Origin: Kosmotoga olearia TBF 19.5.1
GTDB lineage: Bacteria; Thermotogota; Thermotogae; Petrotogales; Kosmotogaceae
Direction of reading: 5' to 3'
Assembly (NCBI RefSeq): GCF_000023325.1
Contig: NC_012785.1
Span: 1,302,001 to 1,366,000 of the forward strand
DNA: 64,000 bases
Shown: positions 16,589 to 54,069 of the stretch, one piece after another
Layout: the number at the start of each line of letters is the position of its first letter
How positions within the stretch are numbered: position 1 is the stretch's first letter
Notes under the pieces: generated by a model
Told to the model about the DNA's origin: nothing
Database searches by the model: none
What the model saw: the letters and a program-made list of their open reading frames with translations, nothing else
Made by a program: the position numbers and the translations under genes

Positions 16589-16629
16589 GAAAATGGGGAC
16601 TGTACCGCAGTGGACTGTCCCCATTTTCT
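16589..16629 (+). repeat. AAAATGGGGAC REP hairpin
   Basis: AGAAAATGGGGAC pairs perfectly with GTCCCCATTTTCT around TGTACCGCAGTGGACT. Near-identical copies are at 36269-36309 and 39385-39426. It stands 26 nt after the pilin stop and could act as terminator. Confidence 0.85.
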
Positions 16630-30426: not shown

Positions 30427-30465
30427 AAAAAGGGGACAGTCCCATTGTGGACTGTCCCCTTTTTT
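30427..30465 (+). terminator. REP-family hairpin acting as operon terminator
   Basis: AAAAAGGGGACAGTCC pairs with GGACTGTCCCCTTTTTT around CATTGT. The T6 tail makes a good rho-independent terminator. The core GGGGACAGTCC relates it to the AAAATGGGGAC hairpins. Confidence 0.8.
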
Positions 30466-34984: not shown

Positions 34985-35172
34985 AACGTCGCTCCACCAA
35001 TTGACAGTCTCACAAGCCTCCTGGACATAGTCCAGCACTTCGCAGCGTAGCTGCTTTCCGCCGCGCAGCGGCTATCTCGGTTCTCGGACTCTCGGACTCT
35101 CGGATTCTCGGATTCTTATCAGGAGTTCGCACCACTGGCATTAGCCAGTCGTACCCACGCGAAGCGTGTTTA
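34985..35172 (+). repeat. Hairpin-module array
   Basis: CTGGAC-ATA-GTCCAG, CCGC-GCA-GCGG, a spacer with TCTCGGA repeated four times, ACTGGC-ATTA-GCCAGT and CACGC-GAA-GCGTG are present. It ends at the stop codon of the convergent phosphatase gene. Confidence 0.8.
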
Positions 35173-36207
35173 CCGTGGGAAAACAAAAAAGCTGTCGATT
35201 TCCTGGCCCTTTATGTCATAACAGGTGCCTTTTAGTTTGCCATTATCATATTCAAAGAGAACGAAGTGATATCCTTCGAAGCTTGCTACCGGACCTGAAG
35301 GATCTTTAATGCCATAAGGAGAAGCTCCACCACCACCTATTACGATGTATGTGAGACCATTGTGTTCAATGCGCTGGTAGTTATGATCATGACCAGAAAG
35401 AACAAGATCAACGCCATATTTTTCAAACAGAGGAACAAGAATAGTTTTCACAAAATAAGAGTCCCCATGTGAGCTGTAACTGAAAGGCGGATGATGAAAC
35501 ATTACAATGGTAAATTTAGCGGAATTGGTCATTACCAAAGACTTCAACCATTTGTACTGTTCGGAATACCTGTCAAAACGTTCATTTGTATTTAGCACAA
35601 TGAATAACAATTCTCCAATTTTGAAAGAATAATATGACTCGTTTCCTGGGAGAGAAAAGAAAGTTTTGTAATTTTCGGCTGCTTTTTCATGGTTACCAAT
35701 CGCTGGAAAAAACAAAACATTACTCAAAGGTTCTGTCGCTTTGAAGAAATCTGCCCAATCGTTAATACGGCTGTCTGAATATACAATATCACCTGTGTGC
35801 AATACAAAAAGAGGCTCCTTTGAAGAAATGACCTTGGTGACTCTTAAATGTATTTTCGGATTACTTCGTGAATCTCCGTAAACAACGAACCTAAGGTGAT
35901 TACCAGGATTAAAAGGAATAGAAAAATTACCTTCCAGAACATAGTCGGTAGAAGATTCACATTCAATACGATATTTGTAAGAAACATCCGGGCTCAAATC
36001 GGATACAGTCAGTACATGAAACTTCGAAGGTTTGGATTCAAACACTTCTTTGGAAAAGTGTTCATTATAGACATACAAATTACATACAACCGGAGTTGTA
36101 GTGTACCAGCTAAACTGAACAGTATTTGTAGCAGGTGATGTGATAACAACAGCCAGCAATGTCATGGAAATCGCAACAAAAAATAGTATGGCAAACAACA
36201 TTTTCAT
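35170..36207 (-). CDS. Secreted metallophosphatase (purple acid phosphatase-like)
   Basis: The 345-residue product has an N-terminal signal (KMLFAILFFVAISMTLLA) and a fibronectin-III-like domain to about residue 110. A calcineurin-type dimetal site follows: FVVYGDSRSN, LHTGDIVYSD, PAIGNHE, FHHPPFS and SGHDHNYQR. It should hydrolyse phosphate esters outside the cytoplasmic membrane. The ATG at 36207 follows AAAGGGAG at 8 nt; a TTG 18 nt earlier is the alternative. It is flanked by repeats on both sides. Confidence 0.9.
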   Translation of the reverse strand: MKMLFAILFFVAISMTLLAVVITSPATNTVQFSWYTTTPVVCNLYVYNEHFSKEVFESKPSKFHVLTVSDLSPDVSYKYRIECESSTDYVLEGNFSIPFNPGNHLRFVVYGDSRSNPKIHLRVTKVISSKEPLFVLHTGDIVYSDSRINDWADFFKATEPLSNVLFFPAIGNHEKAAENYKTFFSLPGNESYYSFKIGELLFIVLNTNERFDRYSEQYKWLKSLVMTNSAKFTIVMFHHPPFSYSSHGDSYFVKTILVPLFEKYGVDLVLSGHDHNYQRIEHNGLTYIVIGGGGASPYGIKDPSGPVASFEGYHFVLFEYDNGKLKGTCYDIKGQEIDSFFVFPR

Positions 36208-36268
36208 ACCCAATCTCCCTTTCAATATTTAATGCTCCTACTGTCCTTATTTTACAGTACAAAACAAA

Positions 36269-36309
36269 GAAAATGGGGACTGTACCGCAGTGGACTGTCC
36301 CCATTTTCT
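36269..36309 (+). repeat. AAAATGGGGAC REP hairpin
   Basis: It has the same arms and loop as 16589-16629, at the 5' side of the phosphatase gene, so it is not a terminator for that gene. Confidence 0.85.
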
Positions 36310-36314
36310 TGCAC

Positions 36315-36441
36315 TCTTTATACCTCAACCACGAAGTGGTTCCAAGCATCCGAAGCTATGCTCCGCCCAGCGTCAGTTGCCGTTAGGTAACTCCCACCAT
36401 CAACGGCGACAGCCGTTCCCAGCGTCTGATCGGAGAATAAC
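36315..36441 (+). repeat. Array remnant between REP hairpin and dinB
   Basis: AACCAC-GAA-GTGGTT, GTTGCCGTTAGGTAAC and CAACGGCGACAGCCGTT modules are present, more degraded than elsewhere. It abuts the dinB 3' end. Confidence 0.65.
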
Positions 36442-37716
36442 TCAAATACTAGCGACGGCGAGAATGGAAGCAGGGAAAATTGAGTACTCTCCGAAATGAT
36501 TCTGGAGATTGAGAACGACTTCGACCGTGTCTTTTTCTTTTTTAAATAAGTTTTCTTGATATACGTTTTTATTTACAGGCTTAAGTTTGTAAAGAGAAAC
36601 CCCTACTGCCCTTACGGCTTCACCGTTCCATATTTCTCTTATCAACCAGTAAAGAACATTGTTCAAGTGTTCCGGGCGTGAAATATAAAAGGAAAGACTT
36701 CTCGTGATTCTGGCAACGCTGAAATCGCTGTATTTTAAAAACAGACTGGTTCCTCTTGCCTGGTATCCGTATTTTCTCATTCTGTAAACAGCTTTCGCGC
36801 CGAGAAAACTTGCGACCCTTTCGATAAGTTCTATTGAATTTACATCATGATTGAGAGTCATCGAATGCCCCACAGATTTTGGTGGTTCTTTTTTAAAAAA
36901 CAATTCTTTTGGATAATTTTTAACGGTAAGTGATTTAACGAGCCCCAGGAAAGAATTTCCAAAATTGTGGTAAAGGAAAAACTCATCTGCTTCTAATAAT
37001 TCAGAGGCTTTTTTAAAACCAAAGTTTTCTAATTTCATCAGCGTGTGTGGTCCAATACCCGGAACCTGAGATATATCGACATTCTGCAAAAAAGCCTTTT
37101 CTGATCCCTCTTTAACCACGACAAATCCCCGTGGCTTATTAAAATCACTCGCGATTTTGGCAATTAAAGGGTTTACTGCAACACCTATTGAAAAAGAAAT
37201 CCCGAAGGTTTTCTCGATAGAGGTTCTAAAAAGCTTCAAAGCATTTATAGAATCAGACAAACTATGATATACGGATAAATCAATAAATGCTTCATCGATA
37301 CTCGCTACAGAATATCTTGGAGATATGAATTCAAGGCGTTTCATAATTTCTTCGGATACGTATGTGTATTTGCCACTATCAACAGGCACAAATAAAGCTT
37401 TCGGACATATTTCTAAGGCCTTAAAGGCAGGCATACCCGCTTTAACTCCGTATTTTTTAGCTTCGTAACTTGCCGAAACGACCACAGAATGCCTTGTATC
37501 TTTTCCAGTCACAATGATTGGTTTGCCCTTAAGATAAGGATTGGAGGCTTGTTCCACACTGGCAAAAAAAGCGTCCATATCGACGTGTGCGATGTAGGGA
37601 ATTGACTTTCGTGACTTACCAGTACTGACTTTCGTGGTAATACCACTGTTTGTCAAATTCTTTATATTCGAGAATGTGGATATTCCTCGAAGCCCTAACT
37701 GAGAATTTATAGACAC
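36442..37716 (-). CDS. dinB: DNA polymerase IV (Y-family)
   Basis: About 424 residues. The catalytic palm motifs are HVDMDAFFASVEQ and YSVASIDEAFIDLS, with SYEAKKYGVKAGMP in the fingers and VPGIGPHTLMKL as the helix-hairpin-helix. It carries out translesion synthesis. The N-terminus is about 40 residues longer than usual before HVDMD. I place the start at GTG 37716, behind a G6 run; a weaker TTG lies at 37656. The longer start overlaps the preceding small gene by about 100 nt. Confidence 0.92.
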   Translation of the reverse strand: MSINSQLGLRGISTFSNIKNLTNSGITTKVSTGKSRKSIPYIAHVDMDAFFASVEQASNPYLKGKPIIVTGKDTRHSVVVSASYEAKKYGVKAGMPAFKALEICPKALFVPVDSGKYTYVSEEIMKRLEFISPRYSVASIDEAFIDLSVYHSLSDSINALKLFRTSIEKTFGISFSIGVAVNPLIAKIASDFNKPRGFVVVKEGSEKAFLQNVDISQVPGIGPHTLMKLENFGFKKASELLEADEFFLYHNFGNSFLGLVKSLTVKNYPKELFFKKEPPKSVGHSMTLNHDVNSIELIERVASFLGAKAVYRMRKYGYQARGTSLFLKYSDFSVARITRSLSFYISRPEHLNNVLYWLIREIWNGEAVRAVGVSLYKLKPVNKNVYQENLFKKEKDTVEVVLNLQNHFGEYSIFPASILAVASI

Positions 37717-37858
37717 GATAATCCCCCCTACGTTCTTTCCAGACGTATACAACCTTTTCTATTCGAATTTTTCTGTCATTGAGTACGAAATAGATGGGAA
37801 AGAAAAAACCTTTTTCAAAACAAACTATGACTTTTATAGGCCTTCCTTCAGAATACAT
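37616..37858 (-). CDS. Small DUF6504-like protein encoded ahead of dinB
   Basis: The 80-residue basic and aromatic protein (MYSEGRPIKVIVCFEKG at the start, VVYVWKERRGDYRVYKFSV in the middle) resembles the short DUF6504-type proteins found beside Y-family polymerases. The match is from memory of the pattern only. The ATG at 37858 follows AGGTGAAAG. Its 3' part overlaps the 5' end of dinB in another frame, so translation is probably coupled. Confidence 0.6.
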   Translation of the reverse strand: MYSEGRPIKVIVCFEKGFFFPIYFVLNDRKIRIEKVVYVWKERRGDYRVYKFSVRASRNIHILEYKEFDKQWYYHESQYW

Positions 37859-37921
37859 TCTTTCACCTACTACGACTATTGAGGTATAAAAAAGTATATC
37901 ACATTTAAATGACCTTGCCAA

Positions 37922-38453
37922 AGTCTAATCGAATCATGTTGTACAGTACATTGGAAAGGAAATATGGCGATATTTAACGTGGCAGCAAAAAGAAGTTCAA
38001 TTATGTTGGATTATATGTAGCATACATTGAAATACCTATATTGTGTATATGGCCATAGAAAATTGACCCCCTACCCCTGGTAAAAAACTTCTTGGGCAGG
38101 ATAATAGAATCAATCTGCAAGCGTCGCATTATCAATTGTCAGCGTCCGCAAGCCTCAACCTCGTGAGCCTCCTGAGCGCAGCTCAGCACTTTCGCCGCAT
38201 AGCGGCCCTCTCGCCTTCTCGGACTCTCGGATTCTCGGATTCTTATCAGGAGTTCGTATCACCGGCGAAGCCGGTCGTAACAATCCCAAAGGGATTCGCA
38301 TCCGCCGCGTAGCGGCTATCTCGGATTCTCGGATTCTTATCAGGAGTTCGCACCACTGGCACAGCCAGTCGCACTCTTTCTCAGTTCAAGGCGCCATCTC
38401 TTGATCCTGCTACTTTTAGTGGTTTAAAATAAAAATAGAGGAGGAACAGAAAA
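37922..38453. repeat. Gap with hairpin-module array (38110-38395)
   Basis: From 37922 to 38105 I see nothing recognisable. From 38110 there are CTGAGC-GCA-GCTCAG, spacers, ACCGGC-GAA-GCCGGT, AATCCC-AAA-GGGATT, CCGC-GTA-GCGG and ACTGGC-ACA-GCCAGT. The AAA and ACA loops are decayed exceptions to the GNA rule. Confidence 0.8.
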
Positions 38454-39377
38454 ATGATTATTAATGAAGAGGTTATTTGGATTGTAAATTCATTGGTAGG
38501 GGAATTTGAAATTATAAAAGACCATAGGAATAGTAGTAACAGAACAGGCGTTTTAGAAATTAATGCTAACAATAAAAGAATGTTTATTAAAATTCATAAC
38601 AGATTAAGTCGGTGGAGTCCTGAAGTTTATGCATATAAAAATTGGACTCATATACTTGGAGAATATGCCCCTAGACTTATACATTCTTTTAATGATGATA
38701 ATTTTTATGGAATAATTACTACCCCAATTTATGGAAAGACAGTAAATGAATATCAAATAAATGACGAGGATATATTAGAACCAATTTACTATAAAGCTGG
38801 AGAATTACTTAAGCAATTACATAACAACTTTAAAGGTACATATTTTGGTATTCCTGCGATTGATGGTTCACCTCTTGAAAGTAAGGCAAAAACGGATCCC
38901 GTAGATTATATTAATTCTGCATTAGAAGATATTTTGAAATCAGGATATGATAAAGGATTATTTAATAATAGTGATAAGGAATTAGTTAAATGGTGTATGA
39001 AGCATAGTGATGTCTTTGCAAATAGCAAGCCAGTTCCTACAAACTGGGACTTTTCACAAAACAACTGGATGGTTGATGAGGATGGTAAGTTTACTGGTTT
39101 TATAGATTTTGAAAATATGCTTTGGGGGATTGATGTTGACAGTTTTGGAATAGTGATTGAAAGGTATACCCCAAATAGACCCAAGTTAAGGAAAGCTTTG
39201 TTTGAGGGATATGGATTAGAAAATAGTGAGGAAAAACAACTGCAACTTAAAATTGTAAGCGTTAAAATGGCTATAGCGGATATAACATATGGAGCTAGTG
39301 TTGGTAATGATAGAATTTTTTCATTAGGAAGAAACTTGATGGATAACCTAAAAATGCCAGGCTTCAAGATACATTAA
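38454..39377 (+). CDS. Aminoglycoside-phosphotransferase-like kinase (AT-rich)
   Basis: The 307-residue protein has a kinase-like fold: MFIKIHNRLSRWSPEVYAY gives the ATP-lysine, and PTNWDFSQNNWMV replaces the usual HGDxxxxN catalytic loop, keeping the Asp and the last Asn. GFIDFENMLWGIDVDSFG supplies the metal-binding Asp. Substrates of such enzymes include antibiotics, choline and sugars; none can be chosen here. Codons are strikingly A/T-rich compared with neighbours, and repeats flank both sides, suggesting acquisition. AGGAGGAAC precedes the ATG. Confidence 0.82.
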   Translation: MIINEEVIWIVNSLVGEFEIIKDHRNSSNRTGVLEINANNKRMFIKIHNRLSRWSPEVYAYKNWTHILGEYAPRLIHSFNDDNFYGIITTPIYGKTVNEYQINDEDILEPIYYKAGELLKQLHNNFKGTYFGIPAIDGSPLESKAKTDPVDYINSALEDILKSGYDKGLFNNSDKELVKWCMKHSDVFANSKPVPTNWDFSQNNWMVDEDGKFTGFIDFENMLWGIDVDSFGIVIERYTPNRPKLRKALFEGYGLENSEEKQLQLKIVSVKMAIADITYGASVGNDRIFSLGRNLMDNLKMPGFKIH

Positions 39378-39384
39378 GATCTTA

Positions 39385-39426
39385 AGAAAATGGGGACTAT
39401 ACCGCAGTGGACTGTCCCCATTTTCT
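39385..39426 (+). repeat. AAAATGGGGAC REP hairpin
   Basis: AGAAAATGGGGAC pairs with GTCCCCATTTTCT around TATACCGCAGTGGACT, only 8 nt after the kinase stop. Confidence 0.85.
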
Positions 39427-39439
39427 GAGACTGTAGCTC

Positions 39440-39655
39440 TTATTTTAAGTAATGTCAACTGCGCAGCAGTTCGGGTCAACTCCGTAGGAGTTCGTGACAA
39501 CTCAGAATGAGTTCGCTCCAATCCCGAAGGGATTCGTGTCTGCCGCGCAGCGGCTATCTCGGTTCTCGGACTCTCGGATTCTCGGATTCTTATCACGAGT
39601 TCGAGACAACCACAAGCAGTTCGCGTCCGCCGTGCAGCGCCAAGCCTTGTAAACA
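39440..39655 (+). repeat. Phased hairpin array with compensatory stems
   Basis: Loop centres are at 39464, 39485, 39506, 39527 and 39548, all 21 nt apart. Stems and loops in order: AACTGC-GCA, AACTCC-GTA, AACTCA-GAA (partner TGAGTT), AATCCC-GAA and CCGC-GCA. After a spacer, CGAGTTCGAGACAACC begins the segment shared with 53190-53254 next to the second RAYT. Confidence 0.87.
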
Positions 39656-40348
39656 TTACCTTTTCTTTGGTCTGCCTTTTGGCCTTCTTTTCAGTGGGAG
39701 GCCCAAAACCTCTTCAAATTTAGCAATTTTTTCGTCGTTAAAAAATAATCTTCCAGTAGAAGTATTCCTTCGTATATTAGAAAGAAAATCATTACTATCC
39801 GGATATCCAAGATATTCTTTCCATCCGTCAGGATTCCAGTTAAATCCAAAATCTGACAAATCGCTTAAGTGAAGAAAATGGGGACTTTCCCTCCGTGTGT
39901 CCCCATTTTCTTTTACACGTACCCTAGCGCTCGACCATTCATAATCCCAGGGAAATTCAACTATCTTTGCTCTTACGGGGTTTCGCTCAACATATTTAAC
40001 AGCCGAAATAGCATGTTCTTGATCGAGAGGGCAGGAATAGAATCTTCCCTGCCAGAGATGTCCCGTTCTATGATGTTTTCGATTAAAATACTGTGAGTAT
40101 CTCATATGAGCGTACTTAAAAGCCATGGCTAGAGAATCTTCTCTTTCAGGGACAGCGATAAAATGAACATGATTGGTCATGAGGCAATACGCATATATCT
40201 TGAGCCCATGTTTAGCTGAATATTCCTTAATGAATTCAAGATATTTGATTCTATCTTCAGGATCCTCAAAAACACTTTGACGATAATTACCCCTTTGCGT
40301 TACATGATGAGCAATACCCTCGAGAACAACCCTCGCGCTTCTTGGCAT
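39656..40348 (-). CDS. REP-associated tyrosine transposase, copy 1
   Basis: The 230-residue protein is Y1/HUH type: MTNHVHFIAVP is the HUH motif (about residues 69-79), and the catalytic Tyr is in AHMRYSQYF. The start MPRSARVVLEGIAHHVTQRG is diagnostic of RAYT proteins. Such enzymes cut single-stranded DNA at hairpins. Near residue 152 the protein contains KENGDTRRESPHFLH, encoded by an AAAATGGGGAC hairpin (39873-39911). The ATG at 40348 follows GGTGATGAA. It is nearly identical to the gene at 53255. Confidence 0.93.
   Translation of the reverse strand: MPRSARVVLEGIAHHVTQRGNYRQSVFEDPEDRIKYLEFIKEYSAKHGLKIYAYCLMTNHVHFIAVPEREDSLAMAFKYAHMRYSQYFNRKHHRTGHLWQGRFYSCPLDQEHAISAVKYVERNPVRAKIVEFPWDYEWSSARVRVKENGDTRRESPHFLHLSDLSDFGFNWNPDGWKEYLGYPDSNDFLSNIRRNTSTGRLFFNDEKIAKFEEVLGLPLKRRPKGRPKKR
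39873..39911 (-). repeat. REP hairpin inside RAYT copy 1
   Basis: AGAAAATGGGGAC and GTCCCCATTTTCT arms lie within the coding sequence and are translated in frame. Confidence 0.85.
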
Positions 40349-40390
40349 TTCATCACCACTTGGCAACCAAGATACCCGATCATACCATAA

Positions 40391-40414
40391 AATATTGGTG
40401 TCTGTCCCTATTTT
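40391..40414 (+). repeat. GTGTCTGTCCCTATTTT half-site
   Basis: AATATTGGTGTCTGTCCCTATTTT lies just upstream of RAYT copy 1. The same segment lies upstream of copy 2 (53991-54015), at 40579-40606, 49590-49605, 49651-49676 and 55826-55846. It shares the GTCCC(C/T)ATTTT arm of the REP hairpin. Confidence 0.75.
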
Positions 40415-40760: not shown

Positions 40761-41654
40761 TCAAATAATGATTCGCCATGTTCCTGAGTTCATTACCTCA
40801 AACCTAGTATTTTCTTTCACAACGGATCCAGGTACCCAGCAAAGACCGGGGGAGGAAATAGCTCTTCCTGCTCCTTTTCTGTTATCCCATTCTCTTCCCG
40901 TGAAAATCTCTATCTCGCCTTCTATTTTCAAAGGTGGAACACATTCAACATGTGCCCAGACAGGCTTTCCCGCTATTATAATCACATTTACGGACTCCTT
41001 AGTTTCACTCCATTCACCATAAAATCCCTCTGTTTCCAGTTTTGTATCGTCTACCCTTTTTAGTTTCGACAACTCTATCCTCCCGAATCCGTACTTTCTC
41101 TCACCACCTACTTGTAGAAACTGAATCAGTTCAGAGAGTTTCAGCCGAGCACCTTCATATTTGAGTGAAAGATCATCGTCCTGTTCAGAAAAGCTCTCGA
41201 GTTTCTTCACCCACAGCAACCCCTTAAGAGACAAAGGAGAAGAATCATCCATACTGTAAGGATTTATATGCTCAAGATGATGCAGGGTCTCCTCTTCTGC
41301 GGATAGAGAGTATGCATCTATGGAGGTTGTTGATATGGAATGAACACACTTTTTTTCAAACTCATACAAAGAGACTCCACCGAATTTTAAACCTTCCTCC
41401 GTATATTTAGGAATAAAGAGTTCTTCTCCATCTGAAAGATAAAGATATCCAAATCTCATCTGTTCTTTCAAAAACTGCCCGGCTTTTTTATAGTCACCTT
41501 TACCTGTTTTCTGCACAAGTCTTACCGTCACAGCACCCCAAAGAGTTCTTCCAGGAACATAGAGTCTTGTTCGCATGAGATGCATGATTTTGTGATATCC
41601 AATGTGCAAAGGTGATTTCAGCCGGAAGGTTACAGAATAGAGAAACCAGCTCAC
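40761..41654 (-). CDS. CRISPR type III RAMP protein, probable Cas5-group (Cmr3/Csx10-like) subunit
   Basis: The 297-residue protein has RAMP traits. It starts SVTFRLKSPLHIGYHK, has the substrate-strand RLYVPGRTLWGAVTVRL (about residues 31-47) and a glycine-rich loop GGERKYGFGRIEL near residue 197. It is the last gene of the effector operon, where the crRNA 5'-handle-binding Cas5-type subunit would be expected. The subunit identity is inferred from position. It overlaps the preceding small-subunit gene by 4 nt. Confidence 0.75.
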   Translation of the reverse strand: MSWFLYSVTFRLKSPLHIGYHKIMHLMRTRLYVPGRTLWGAVTVRLVQKTGKGDYKKAGQFLKEQMRFGYLYLSDGEELFIPKYTEEGLKFGGVSLYEFEKKCVHSISTTSIDAYSLSAEEETLHHLEHINPYSMDDSSPLSLKGLLWVKKLESFSEQDDDLSLKYEGARLKLSELIQFLQVGGERKYGFGRIELSKLKRVDDTKLETEGFYGEWSETKESVNVIIIAGKPVWAHVECVPPLKIEGEIEIFTGREWDNRKGAGRAISSPGLCWVPGSVVKENTRFEVMNSGTWRIII

Positions 41655-42052
41655 TTCTCCTCACCTTGATTTTTAGACTCTTTTACCCTGGCTTTGGCAT
41701 GATATCTTGCGTATATTAAAGTTTTCTCGATAACCTCAATAGCGAACATCAAATCGTGTATCTTCTCTGAAAGCTTGCTTATCTGCAAGAGCTTATCTTC
41801 CTCCGAGGAATTTTCCAGAAGTTTGAGTTCACCCAGTATTTCTATGGATTTATCAAGAATCTGCTTCGTTCCATTTTCAACCATGCAGAATAAACCGAGT
41901 GCATATAATCCCTGCTGCTGTAAAACACTCAGGGCTTTGGTTATGAGGTTCAGAACTTCTTTTGGGGTGTGCTTATCATCTATCATTCTGTTTGTAATTT
42001 CAAAACTATATTTTGCACAGATTTGGTCGATGTTCTTAGTTTCCTCACACAT
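41651..42052 (-). CDS. cmr5: CRISPR type III small subunit (Cmr5/Cas11-like)
   Basis: The 133-residue, mostly alpha-helical protein (KEVLNLITKALSVLQQQGLYALGLFC in the first half, then long charged helices) fits Cmr5-type small subunits, which line the target RNA in the complex. The QQGLYALGL pattern resembles the Cmr5 nGLlqtlaF segment. Similarity is weak, but position between Cmr4 and the last RAMP supports it. It overlaps cmr4 by 8 nt. Confidence 0.72.
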   Translation of the reverse strand: MCEETKNIDQICAKYSFEITNRMIDDKHTPKEVLNLITKALSVLQQQGLYALGLFCMVENGTKQILDKSIEILGELKLLENSSEEDKLLQISKLSEKIHDLMFAIEVIEKTLIYARYHAKARVKESKNQGEEK

Positions 42053-43025
42053 TTCCTCTCACTCCTTCAAAGTTCAGCACCCTCATTCTTCCCATTCCAC
42101 GCGTGTTCATGCCACCTATTCCCAAGATTTCAAAAAGTTTTAAGCCTTTCTCCACCTGAACTTTCACCCAGTTTATTCCAACGTCTCCTCCATCTTCTGT
42201 TTTCAGTTCTTCACCACCAACTTTGAAATATTTACCCGAATTGTATATGATAGCGAATTTTAAAATGGTACCACGCGGTATCGCTTCATAAGTGAAAAGT
42301 GCTTTTTCTTCAGCAGTACCAGTATCGGGATCGATACTCACTGACGTTCTCACTTCAAGATTACTGTTTACAATCTTTTGAAAAAGCGCGTCCGAGACAA
42401 GAACTGCCCTTTGGGCCACAAGACCAGGTGGCACACCTTTGACTTCATCCAATTTCTCTTTCGCTTCCTTTTGACTATTCTCTTCTTTTTCCAGCATGAT
42501 CCAGCCGAAATTGAGTCTTTCTCTGTTTTTTATTTGTTCTCCCAAAGGATAGAATTTATCGTCTGACAAATTGACATCATCCAACTCTAATGCCAATGGA
42601 GAAGTCACCCACACAGGTCCTATCATGGACGAAACAGGGAAAAGAAGGATGTGTGCATCAAAAAACTGCGCAAGACCCTGCATGCTGTTACCAGAACCTC
42701 TCGAAAAACCATATGAAACACACACGGGGCACGCGGGATTGACTATTCCACAATGTTTTTCGCCACCCTCTCCGCCTCTTCCTGCGCAGGAATATTCCTG
42801 TTTGTCCTTTTTCCATCTGTACTTCCCCGTTGCAAGAGCAGTATACGCTCGTGCGGGTCCACTTATACTTGTCCCCGGTATTTTCGGAAGTCTTGTAGCA
42901 GGATCCCGTACTATGGAAAGATCCACTCTTTCTAGTCTTGTTCCTCCCACCCCAACATGTATTGGATCAATGGTTATCGCGTAATAGGTTTCCAATTTGT
43001 AAATATTGGATTCACAAGGACTCAT
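42045..43025 (-). CDS. cmr4: CRISPR backbone subunit Cmr4 (Cas7 family)
   Basis: The 326-residue protein forms the crRNA backbone. ITIDPIHVGVGGTRLERVDL gives the RAMP start with the probable target-RNA-cleaving Asp at D35. PKIPGTSISGPARAYTA is the next conserved segment. FFDAHILLFPVSSMIGPVWVTS is highly characteristic of Cmr4, and ILGIGGMNTRGMGRMRVL is the glycine-rich loop. A cysteine cluster (CGIVNPACPVC) suggests a metal site. It overlaps cas10 by 14 nt. Confidence 0.9.
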   Translation of the reverse strand: MSPCESNIYKLETYYAITIDPIHVGVGGTRLERVDLSIVRDPATRLPKIPGTSISGPARAYTALATGKYRWKKDKQEYSCAGRGGEGGEKHCGIVNPACPVCVSYGFSRGSGNSMQGLAQFFDAHILLFPVSSMIGPVWVTSPLALELDDVNLSDDKFYPLGEQIKNRERLNFGWIMLEKEENSQKEAKEKLDEVKGVPPGLVAQRAVLVSDALFQKIVNSNLEVRTSVSIDPDTGTAEEKALFTYEAIPRGTILKFAIIYNSGKYFKVGGEELKTEDGGDVGINWVKVQVEKGLKLFEILGIGGMNTRGMGRMRVLNFEGVRGNV

Positions 43026-52734: not shown

Positions 52735-53254
52735 AGAGCTAAACGAACCACGATTATGTTTCAGCCCAGAATTTGTGGGTCAAGAGAGTGCTTGAAAAAT
52801 ATCTTGGAATAGGTCAAGCTCCTATGTTTAGATATCTCATTGATGCTACTCTTCATTGGTATCAGACAAGATAACGAGAGCAAATTTGATTTTCTTATTC
52901 TGCCGAAGGCGCATATCACTGCGAAGCTGTTCTCTCGAATCTCGAACACCGGATCCCGATTTTCAGATTCTAGTGTTTTTATCAGTCTTACCTCCAGCAA
53001 AGCTGGGTTCCCCTTTGCGTGTCATCCTGAACTTGATTCAGGATCTCGTTCTTAAAAAACAAGATTCTGGATAAAACATTTCCAGAATGACTATCTTTAC
53101 CCACTCCGAAGGAGTTATCGAGTAGGAGGGGGGATTCCCCCCCTCCTACTCGATCTCGCGTCAGCGTGCTTACCAGATTCTCGTATTCTTATCACGAGTT
53201 CGAGACAACCACGAGCAGTTCGCGTCCGCCGTGCAGCGCCAAGCCTTGTAAACA
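52735..53254. repeat. Composite repeat gap
   Basis: It begins with about 110 nt reading as an isolated peptide tail (LEKYLGIGQAPMFRYLIDAT), unrecognised. From 52900 there are array modules and spacers, a TCATCCTGAACTTG element (53019-53092), ACTCC-GAA-GGAGT, a 38-nt palindrome (53117-53154), and the segment shared with RAYT copy 1 (from about 53183). Confidence 0.75.
53117..53154. repeat. Perfect palindrome ending like the group II intron
   Basis: ATCGAGTAGGAGGGGGG and CCCCCCCTCCTACTCGAT form 17-bp arms around ATT. The last 11 nt, TCCTACTCGAT, equal the 3' terminus of the intron at 20259-20269. Confidence 0.7.
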
Positions 53255-53947
53255 TTACCTTTTCTTTGGTCTGCCTCTTGGCCTTCTTTTCAGTGGGAGG
53301 CCCAAAACCTCTTCAAATTTAGCAATTTTTTCGTCGTTAAAAAATAGTCTTCCAGTAGAAGTATTCCTTCGTATATTAGAAAGAAAATCATTACTATCCG
53401 GATATCCAAGATATTCTTTCCATCCGTCAGGATTCCAGTTAAATCCAAAATCTGACAAATCGCTTAAGTGAAGAAAATGAGGACTTTCCCTCCGTGTGTC
53501 CCCATTTTCTTTTACACGTACTCCAGCGCTCGACCATTCATAATCCCAGGGAAGTTCAACCATCTTTGCTCTCACGGGATTTCTCTCAACATATTTGACG
53601 GCCGAAATAGCATGTTCATGATCGAGAGGGCAGGAAAAGAATCTTCCCTGCCAAAGATGCCCTGTTCTATGGTGTTTTCGGTTGAAATACTGTGAGTATC
53701 TCATATGAGCGTACTTAAAAGCCATGGCTAGAGAATCTTCTCTTTCAGGGACAGCGATAAAATGAACATGATTGGTCATGAGGCAATACGCATATATCTT
53801 GAGCCCGTATTTGGTTGAATATTCCTTAATGAGCTCAAGGTACTTGATTCTGTCTTCAGGATCCTCAAAGATGTTCTGACGATAATTTCCCCTTTGGGTT
53901 ACATGATGAGCAATACCCTCGAGAACAACCCTCGCGCTTCTTGGCAT
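53255..53947 (-). CDS. REP-associated tyrosine transposase, copy 2
   Basis: The 230-residue near-duplicate of the gene at 39656 has the same HUH motif MTNHVHFIAVP, catalytic Tyr in HMRYSQYF and C-terminal RRPRGRPKKR. It also carries the in-frame insert KENGDTRRESPHFLH (hairpin 53472-53510, one arm mismatch). Start MPRSARVVLEG at 53947 follows GGTGGTGGATG. Homology with copy 1 continues into the array downstream and the GTCTGTCCCTATTTT site upstream, so the whole unit was duplicated. Confidence 0.93.
   Translation of the reverse strand: MPRSARVVLEGIAHHVTQRGNYRQNIFEDPEDRIKYLELIKEYSTKYGLKIYAYCLMTNHVHFIAVPEREDSLAMAFKYAHMRYSQYFNRKHHRTGHLWQGRFFSCPLDHEHAISAVKYVERNPVRAKMVELPWDYEWSSAGVRVKENGDTRRESPHFLHLSDLSDFGFNWNPDGWKEYLGYPDSNDFLSNIRRNTSTGRLFFNDEKIAKFEEVLGLPLKRRPRGRPKKR
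53472..53510 (-). repeat. REP hairpin inside RAYT copy 2
   Basis: AGAAAATGAGGAC and GTCCCCATTTTCT arms; one substitution in the left arm compared with copy 1 leaves the peptide unchanged. Confidence 0.8.
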
Positions 53948-54069
53948 TTCATCCACCACCTGGCAACCAAGATACCCGATCATACCATAAAATATTGGAG
54001 TCTGTCCCTATTTTTCTCCTATTTTTCTCCGTTCCTATTTTTCTCCGCTCCAACTGCAAAGCAGCTCTT

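Follow-up and report, generated by a model that had tools for sequence, protein, structure and literature searches.

Palindromic repeats that lie in frame within a transposase gene have been described by Quentin et al. 2018 (PMC6006769), who found REPs inside subclass 2.4 tnpAREP genes, as a rule between the HuH motif and the Tyr, an arrangement that the main text of that work calls unique to this subclass. TIRYTs and TIRtrons, which carry GGGGWSAS terminal repeats, were described by Di Nocera et al. 2013 (PMC3733652), and the TIRYTs fall largely into subclass 2.1 of Quentin et al., as given in the main text of PMC6006769. In-frame REPs in other coding genes, among them the Rickettsia palindromic elements (RPE), are reviewed in PMC3733652.

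Here we analyse two RAYT (REP-associated tyrosine transposase) genes in a 64,000-nucleotide stretch of the Kosmotoga olearia TBF 19.5.1 genome (the window). As in subclass 2.4, going by the main text of PMC6006769, palindromes cognate to the transposase lie within its gene, keep the frame and occupy a variable peripheral region; however, whereas the subclass 2.4 REPs carry a GT[AG]G foot and sit between HuH and Tyr, the insert described here lies in the linker that follows the Tyr, outside the position that marks subclass 2.4, and belongs to a GGGGAC-type family lacking the GTAG foot. With the TIRYTs of PMC3733652 the locus shares a Y1 transposase of similar length, the NHVH and Y..-NP motifs, and GGGGAC repeats that are dispersed and possibly also flank the gene, although in-frame internal copies are not described in the main text of that paper. 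Like the RPE, the palindromic mobile units are translated in frame within a protein, but the RPE reside in genes unrelated to the element, while the host gene here is that of the element's presumed transposase.

Results

The two genes in the window are the only RAYT matches in the whole genome (single contig, 2,302,126 bases). Copy 1, whose likely start is the ATG at 40348-40346 (MPRSAR...), matches Pfam Y1_Tnp with an E value of 1.9e-15 and NCBIfam REP_Tyr_transpos with an E value of 6.3e-19 (68.3 bits, below the curated cut-off of 80), and its best PDB fold match is 4er8, a structure of the E. coli RAYT in complex with a REP hairpin. The protein carries NHVH and YVERNP, so that both the HuH motif and the Y...NP signature of class 2 TnpAY1 given for RAYT/TnpAREP proteins in PMC6006769 are present. 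The gene is under purifying selection, with a dN/dS of 0.10 between the copies and 0.18 against the RAYT of a Kosmotoga-like relative (G002; 81% identity).

Both copies contain a GAAAATGGGGAC...GTCCCCATTTTC hairpin that is read in frame as KENGDTRRESPHFL (Table 1). The preliminary description had placed a REP hairpin inside both coding sequences, and the stem, loop and ORF positions bear this out: the in-frame hairpin is real and confirmed. In copy 1 the stem is formed by AAGAAAATGGGGAC and GTCCCCATTTTCTT, with all 14 pairs perfect, and its DNA fold (-14.4 kcal/mol, z -5.1) is far better than that of shuffled sequences; a perfect stem of at least 14 bp arose in 0 of 400 synonymous-codon shuffles, a few of which reached 12-13 bp. 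The hairpin of copy 2 differs by a single arm change, a silent CCC to CCT substitution that yields the G-T pair.

Table 1. Positions of the RAYT genes, hairpins and TIR-like arms in the window
Feature	Position	Strand	Remarks
RAYT copy 1 (Y1/HUH transposase)	39656..40366	-	Pfam Y1_Tnp, NCBIfam REP_Tyr_transpos, PDB 4er8 fold match
In-frame hairpin, copy 1	39872..39912	-	14-bp stem, 13-nt loop, encodes KENGDTRRESPHFL
RAYT copy 2	53255..53983	-	protein 95% identical to copy 1
In-frame hairpin, copy 2	about 53471..53511	-	within the copy 2 ORF; one arm change (G-T pair)
Intergenic repeat hairpin	16590..16627		arms as in gene
Intergenic repeat hairpin	36270..36307		arms as in gene
Intergenic repeat hairpin	39387..39424		arms as in gene; 3' side of RAYT copy 1
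Intergenic family hairpin	30427..30464		AAAAAGGGGAC/GTCCCCTTTTT arms, stem pair changed on both sides
TIR-like arm TGTCCCTATTTT	40403..40414	+	upstream end of duplicated RAYT block
TIR-like arm TGTCCCTATTTT	54003..54014	+	upstream end of copy 2

The in-gene hairpin belongs to a dispersed family. Allowing at most one mismatch, GTCCCCATTTT matches the window 27 times against 1.7 expected, and the 2.30 Mb genome holds nine exact hairpins (AAAATGGGGAC, a spacer of 4-30 nt, GTCCCCATTTT), including in-gene copy 1, while the reversed control pattern gave no exact hairpin genome-wide. The GT[AG]G foot is absent from the flanks of these nine copies, and Rfam at gathering thresholds returned no match in the region. 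The earlier statement that the gene carries the same hairpin as the intergenic copies holds for the arms, which are identical, but not for the loop, which is 3 nt shorter and of different sequence (ACACGGAGGGAAA in the gene against AGTCCACTGCGGTACA-type loops between genes); the AAAAT...ATTTT unit accordingly measures 35 nt in the gene and 38 nt in the intergenic repeats. Solo GTCCCCATTTT arms were also seen, at genome positions 541944, 1271479, 1292803, 1301344, 1307866, 1317977, 1357834 and 1494951, and all 8 are on the plus strand (p 0.008). Within the window, every solo TGTCCCYATTTT arm (15976, 40403, 40592, 49664, 54003 and 55833) likewise lies on the plus strand, a preference that would fit single-strand transposition.

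The homology between the two window copies (39577-40414 against about 53176-54014) stops at the GTCCCTATTTT arm, and that of the RAYT block with G002 and G006 stops at the identical base or no more than 2 bases away; judged from these alignments, the shared boundary suggests that the arm is the real upstream end of the element. This arm, AGGGACAG, is one base off GGGGWSAS, and the dispersed units read GGGGACWG. Unlike in the TIRYTs, a downstream terminal repeat was not found for the window copies, nor does a matching element end lie inside the duplicated block. In G002 the RAYT block (L012:449-3429, compared with window 35177-40414) has a gene order other than that of the window and is flanked by the kinase-like (window 38454-39377) and phosphoesterase-like (35170-36225) genes. 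Next to RAYT copy 1, at 40761-43025, are ORFs that by eye resemble subunits of RAMP-type CRISPR systems (Cmr/Csm).

The divergence between the copies is uneven, with differences at 36 of about 520 sites in the part that runs from the 5' side through the hairpin region, compared with 4 of 304 sites 3' of it (Fisher p 1.5e-4). The pair (39577-40414 and 53176-54014) looks mosaic, as if one tract had recently been exchanged, with its edge at the hairpin; the abrupt fall in divergence on the 3' side suggests that some exchange acted there.

To place the insert in the protein we turned to an AlphaFold model built on a 51-sequence alignment (mean pLDDT 90.8, pTM 0.88). The blocks of lowest pLDDT comprise residues 141-160 (74 and 64) and the extreme C-terminus (71). 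The insert is predicted to lack secondary structure over most of its length and is the least confident internal stretch, within a linker of pLDDT 64-74 that joins the catalytic HUH/Tyr domain to a C-terminal domain. Since it lies about 27 residues past the catalytic Tyr, which is residue 118 in the model, the segment joins the two domains and leaves the catalytic core uninterrupted. The C-terminal domain is an extra one, without a Pfam HTH match; a C-terminal HTH-like domain is a mark of TIRYT / subclass 2.1 proteins. The conserved tail of the RAYTs, RRPKGRPKKR, resembles an AT-hook (a GRP core with basic flanks) and might contact the A/T-rich foot of the hairpin.

The comparison with other RAYTs indicates that the linker varies in length. 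We compared the stretch from the WSSA motif to the following conserved W with that of distant RAYTs, using 78 readable ORFs spread over many phyla: there it is shorter in nearly every case and holds no such peptide. In a wider set of 144 distinct ORFs, the spacing between the Tyr motif and TGRP was measurable in 111. It amounts to 65-71 residues in 95 of these and to 77 in the window copies, and reaches 90-148 in G002, two planctomycetes and the Mesotoga-like relatives; a few other ORFs are also longer. This spread identifies the insertion site as a variable linker and, because most distant RAYTs (95/111) have the shorter form, argues that the segment is not ancestral protein. As the preliminary description had anticipated for an insert, the distant RAYTs do without it, so it is not a conserved protein segment written in other codons. 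Long low-complexity linkers that do not contain this hairpin occur in five relatives (G003, G007, G009, G010 and G016), and an empty insertion site was not found in a close relative.

The RAYT of G002 carries an in-frame unit at the same place and in the same orientation (GAAAACAGGGACAGTACACAACAATGGGACAGTCCTCGTTTTC). Its peptide, NRDSTQQWDSPRF, resembles NGDSPQWDSPHF, the intergenic unit read in that frame, and its DNA departs from the intergenic unit by 3 extra bases and a few substitutions. The stem in G002 is imperfect and weak (z -1.8), and the indels are in frame. While the intergenic units of the window genome (G000) and G002 are alike (AAAATGGGGACTGTACC...GTGGACTGTCCCCATTTT), the in-gene units depart from that pattern, each in its own way. 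On this comparison, the two in-gene units look like old repeats that drift under a frame constraint.

An inverted-repeat scan of the 144 RAYT ORFs, restricted to ungapped stems, placed at the top an ORF designated L147 (score 20), window copy 1 (14) and a further ORF, L095 (13), with the rest, including copy 2, at 11 or below. All three lie in the linker between the HUH/Tyr and C-terminal domains and contain GGGGAC. L095 (at least this one a MAG record) and L147 are planctomycete RAYTs with GGGGAC hairpins of their own, in frame in the same linker. The arms of L095 occur four further times in its genome. In the case of L147, the gene is closely preceded by a related hairpin and closely followed by a GTGTCCCC arm. 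The exact G114 hairpin arm was found within the gene only and nowhere else, so this third case relies on the related upstream hairpin. Counting the two Kosmotoga-like genomes as one event, the in-gene landings appear to be independent and to have occurred at least three separate times. The frequency of inserts is a lower bound, because an ungapped scan misses decayed ones; the G002 linker hairpin was itself not ranked first, and a possible decayed insert in L089 (ENGYKSPFPDGD with one GTCCCC arm) was left out of the count. Viral contigs yielded no relatives, and plasmid matches were distant. In an Omnitrophota RAYT (L079:2998-3696), the 3' end overlaps a AATAGGGGACAG hairpin that also flanks the gene several times.

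Discussion

The origin of the segment is probably that a repeat of the transposase's own GGGGAC-type family inserted at a tolerant linker and then drifted. In the proposed sequence of events, a GGGGAC-type unit would insert into the part of the RAYT gene that encodes the flexible linker. Since the unit is stop-free in 5 or 6 of its six frames, an in-frame landing would merely add residues, some 12-14 of them, to a linker that tolerates changes in length. (We do not claim that the repeat was built to be translated, as about 24% of shuffled palindromes likewise lack stops in 5-6 frames.) The insertion would have happened before the two window copies diverged and, very probably, before G000 and G002 did; the segment would later have drifted as coding sequence, its frame held by indels in multiples of 3 nt, and two planctomycete RAYTs would have reached the same outcome independently. 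We infer transposition of the repeat by the RAYT itself, and take the recurrence in the linker to reflect tolerance rather than targeting. In favour of insertion, the in-gene arms are identical to those of the eight other exact genomic hairpins; against it stand the missing empty site in a close relative, the uneven divergence between the window copies and a copy 1 stem that is still perfect despite the diverged loop, which could mean that the stem is kept.

That last observation also speaks for a functional hairpin, retained because binding of the RAYT to it, in the gene or its mRNA, would serve autoregulation or the mobilisation or marking of that gene. Recurrence at one linker in three lineages and the replacement of one T-A pair by C-G in the G002 stem point the same way. 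We nevertheless consider such a function unlikely: the G002 stem is imperfect and weak, a G-T pair has already arisen in copy 2, and most RAYTs are without an internal hairpin. It is likewise quite doubtful that the linker repeatedly hosts the enzyme's own recognition hairpin under selection, so that binding to its gene or mRNA would limit or direct its activity. A passive reading of the inserted repeat is favoured because most RAYTs do without the hairpin and the one in G002 is decaying. On the same grounds (z -1.8 in G002), the suggestion in the preliminary description that the segment tags the gene as its own substrate fares poorly, while its alternative of a surface loop agrees with a least confident segment, in an otherwise confident model, at the join of two domains.

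It is very improbable that the in-gene hairpin was the source and the dispersed repeats its derivatives; the arms are shared and both related genomes have an in-gene copy, but their intergenic units resemble each other while the in-gene units do not, and G009 has 15 intergenic units with no in-gene hairpin. Imperfect palindromes can become perfect through template switching, and a stem that arose in this way, or by chance in coding sequence, would involve no repeat insertion; the few synonymous shuffles that approach its length lend this some support. As the origin of the arms it is refuted by the match of both to the dispersed family, and two other lineages are alike with their own repeats, leaving it scarcely credible, although template switching could still maintain the stem. 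We give almost no credence to an ordinary conserved protein segment that only looks palindromic, for, while residues EN.D and SP.FL are common to G000 and G002, the segment is absent from the distant RAYTs and the Mesotoga-like relatives.

Compared with the main texts of PMC6006769 and PMC3733652, the post-Tyr site, the TIR-type GGGGAC repeat and the independent recurrence are new, though an earlier record of this case is possible. The findings extend the presence of REPs inside their own transposase to a different RAYT group, a different protein site and TIR-type repeats, and the natural series of intact, decaying and absent hairpins could be used to test the effect of an internal hairpin on the transposase.
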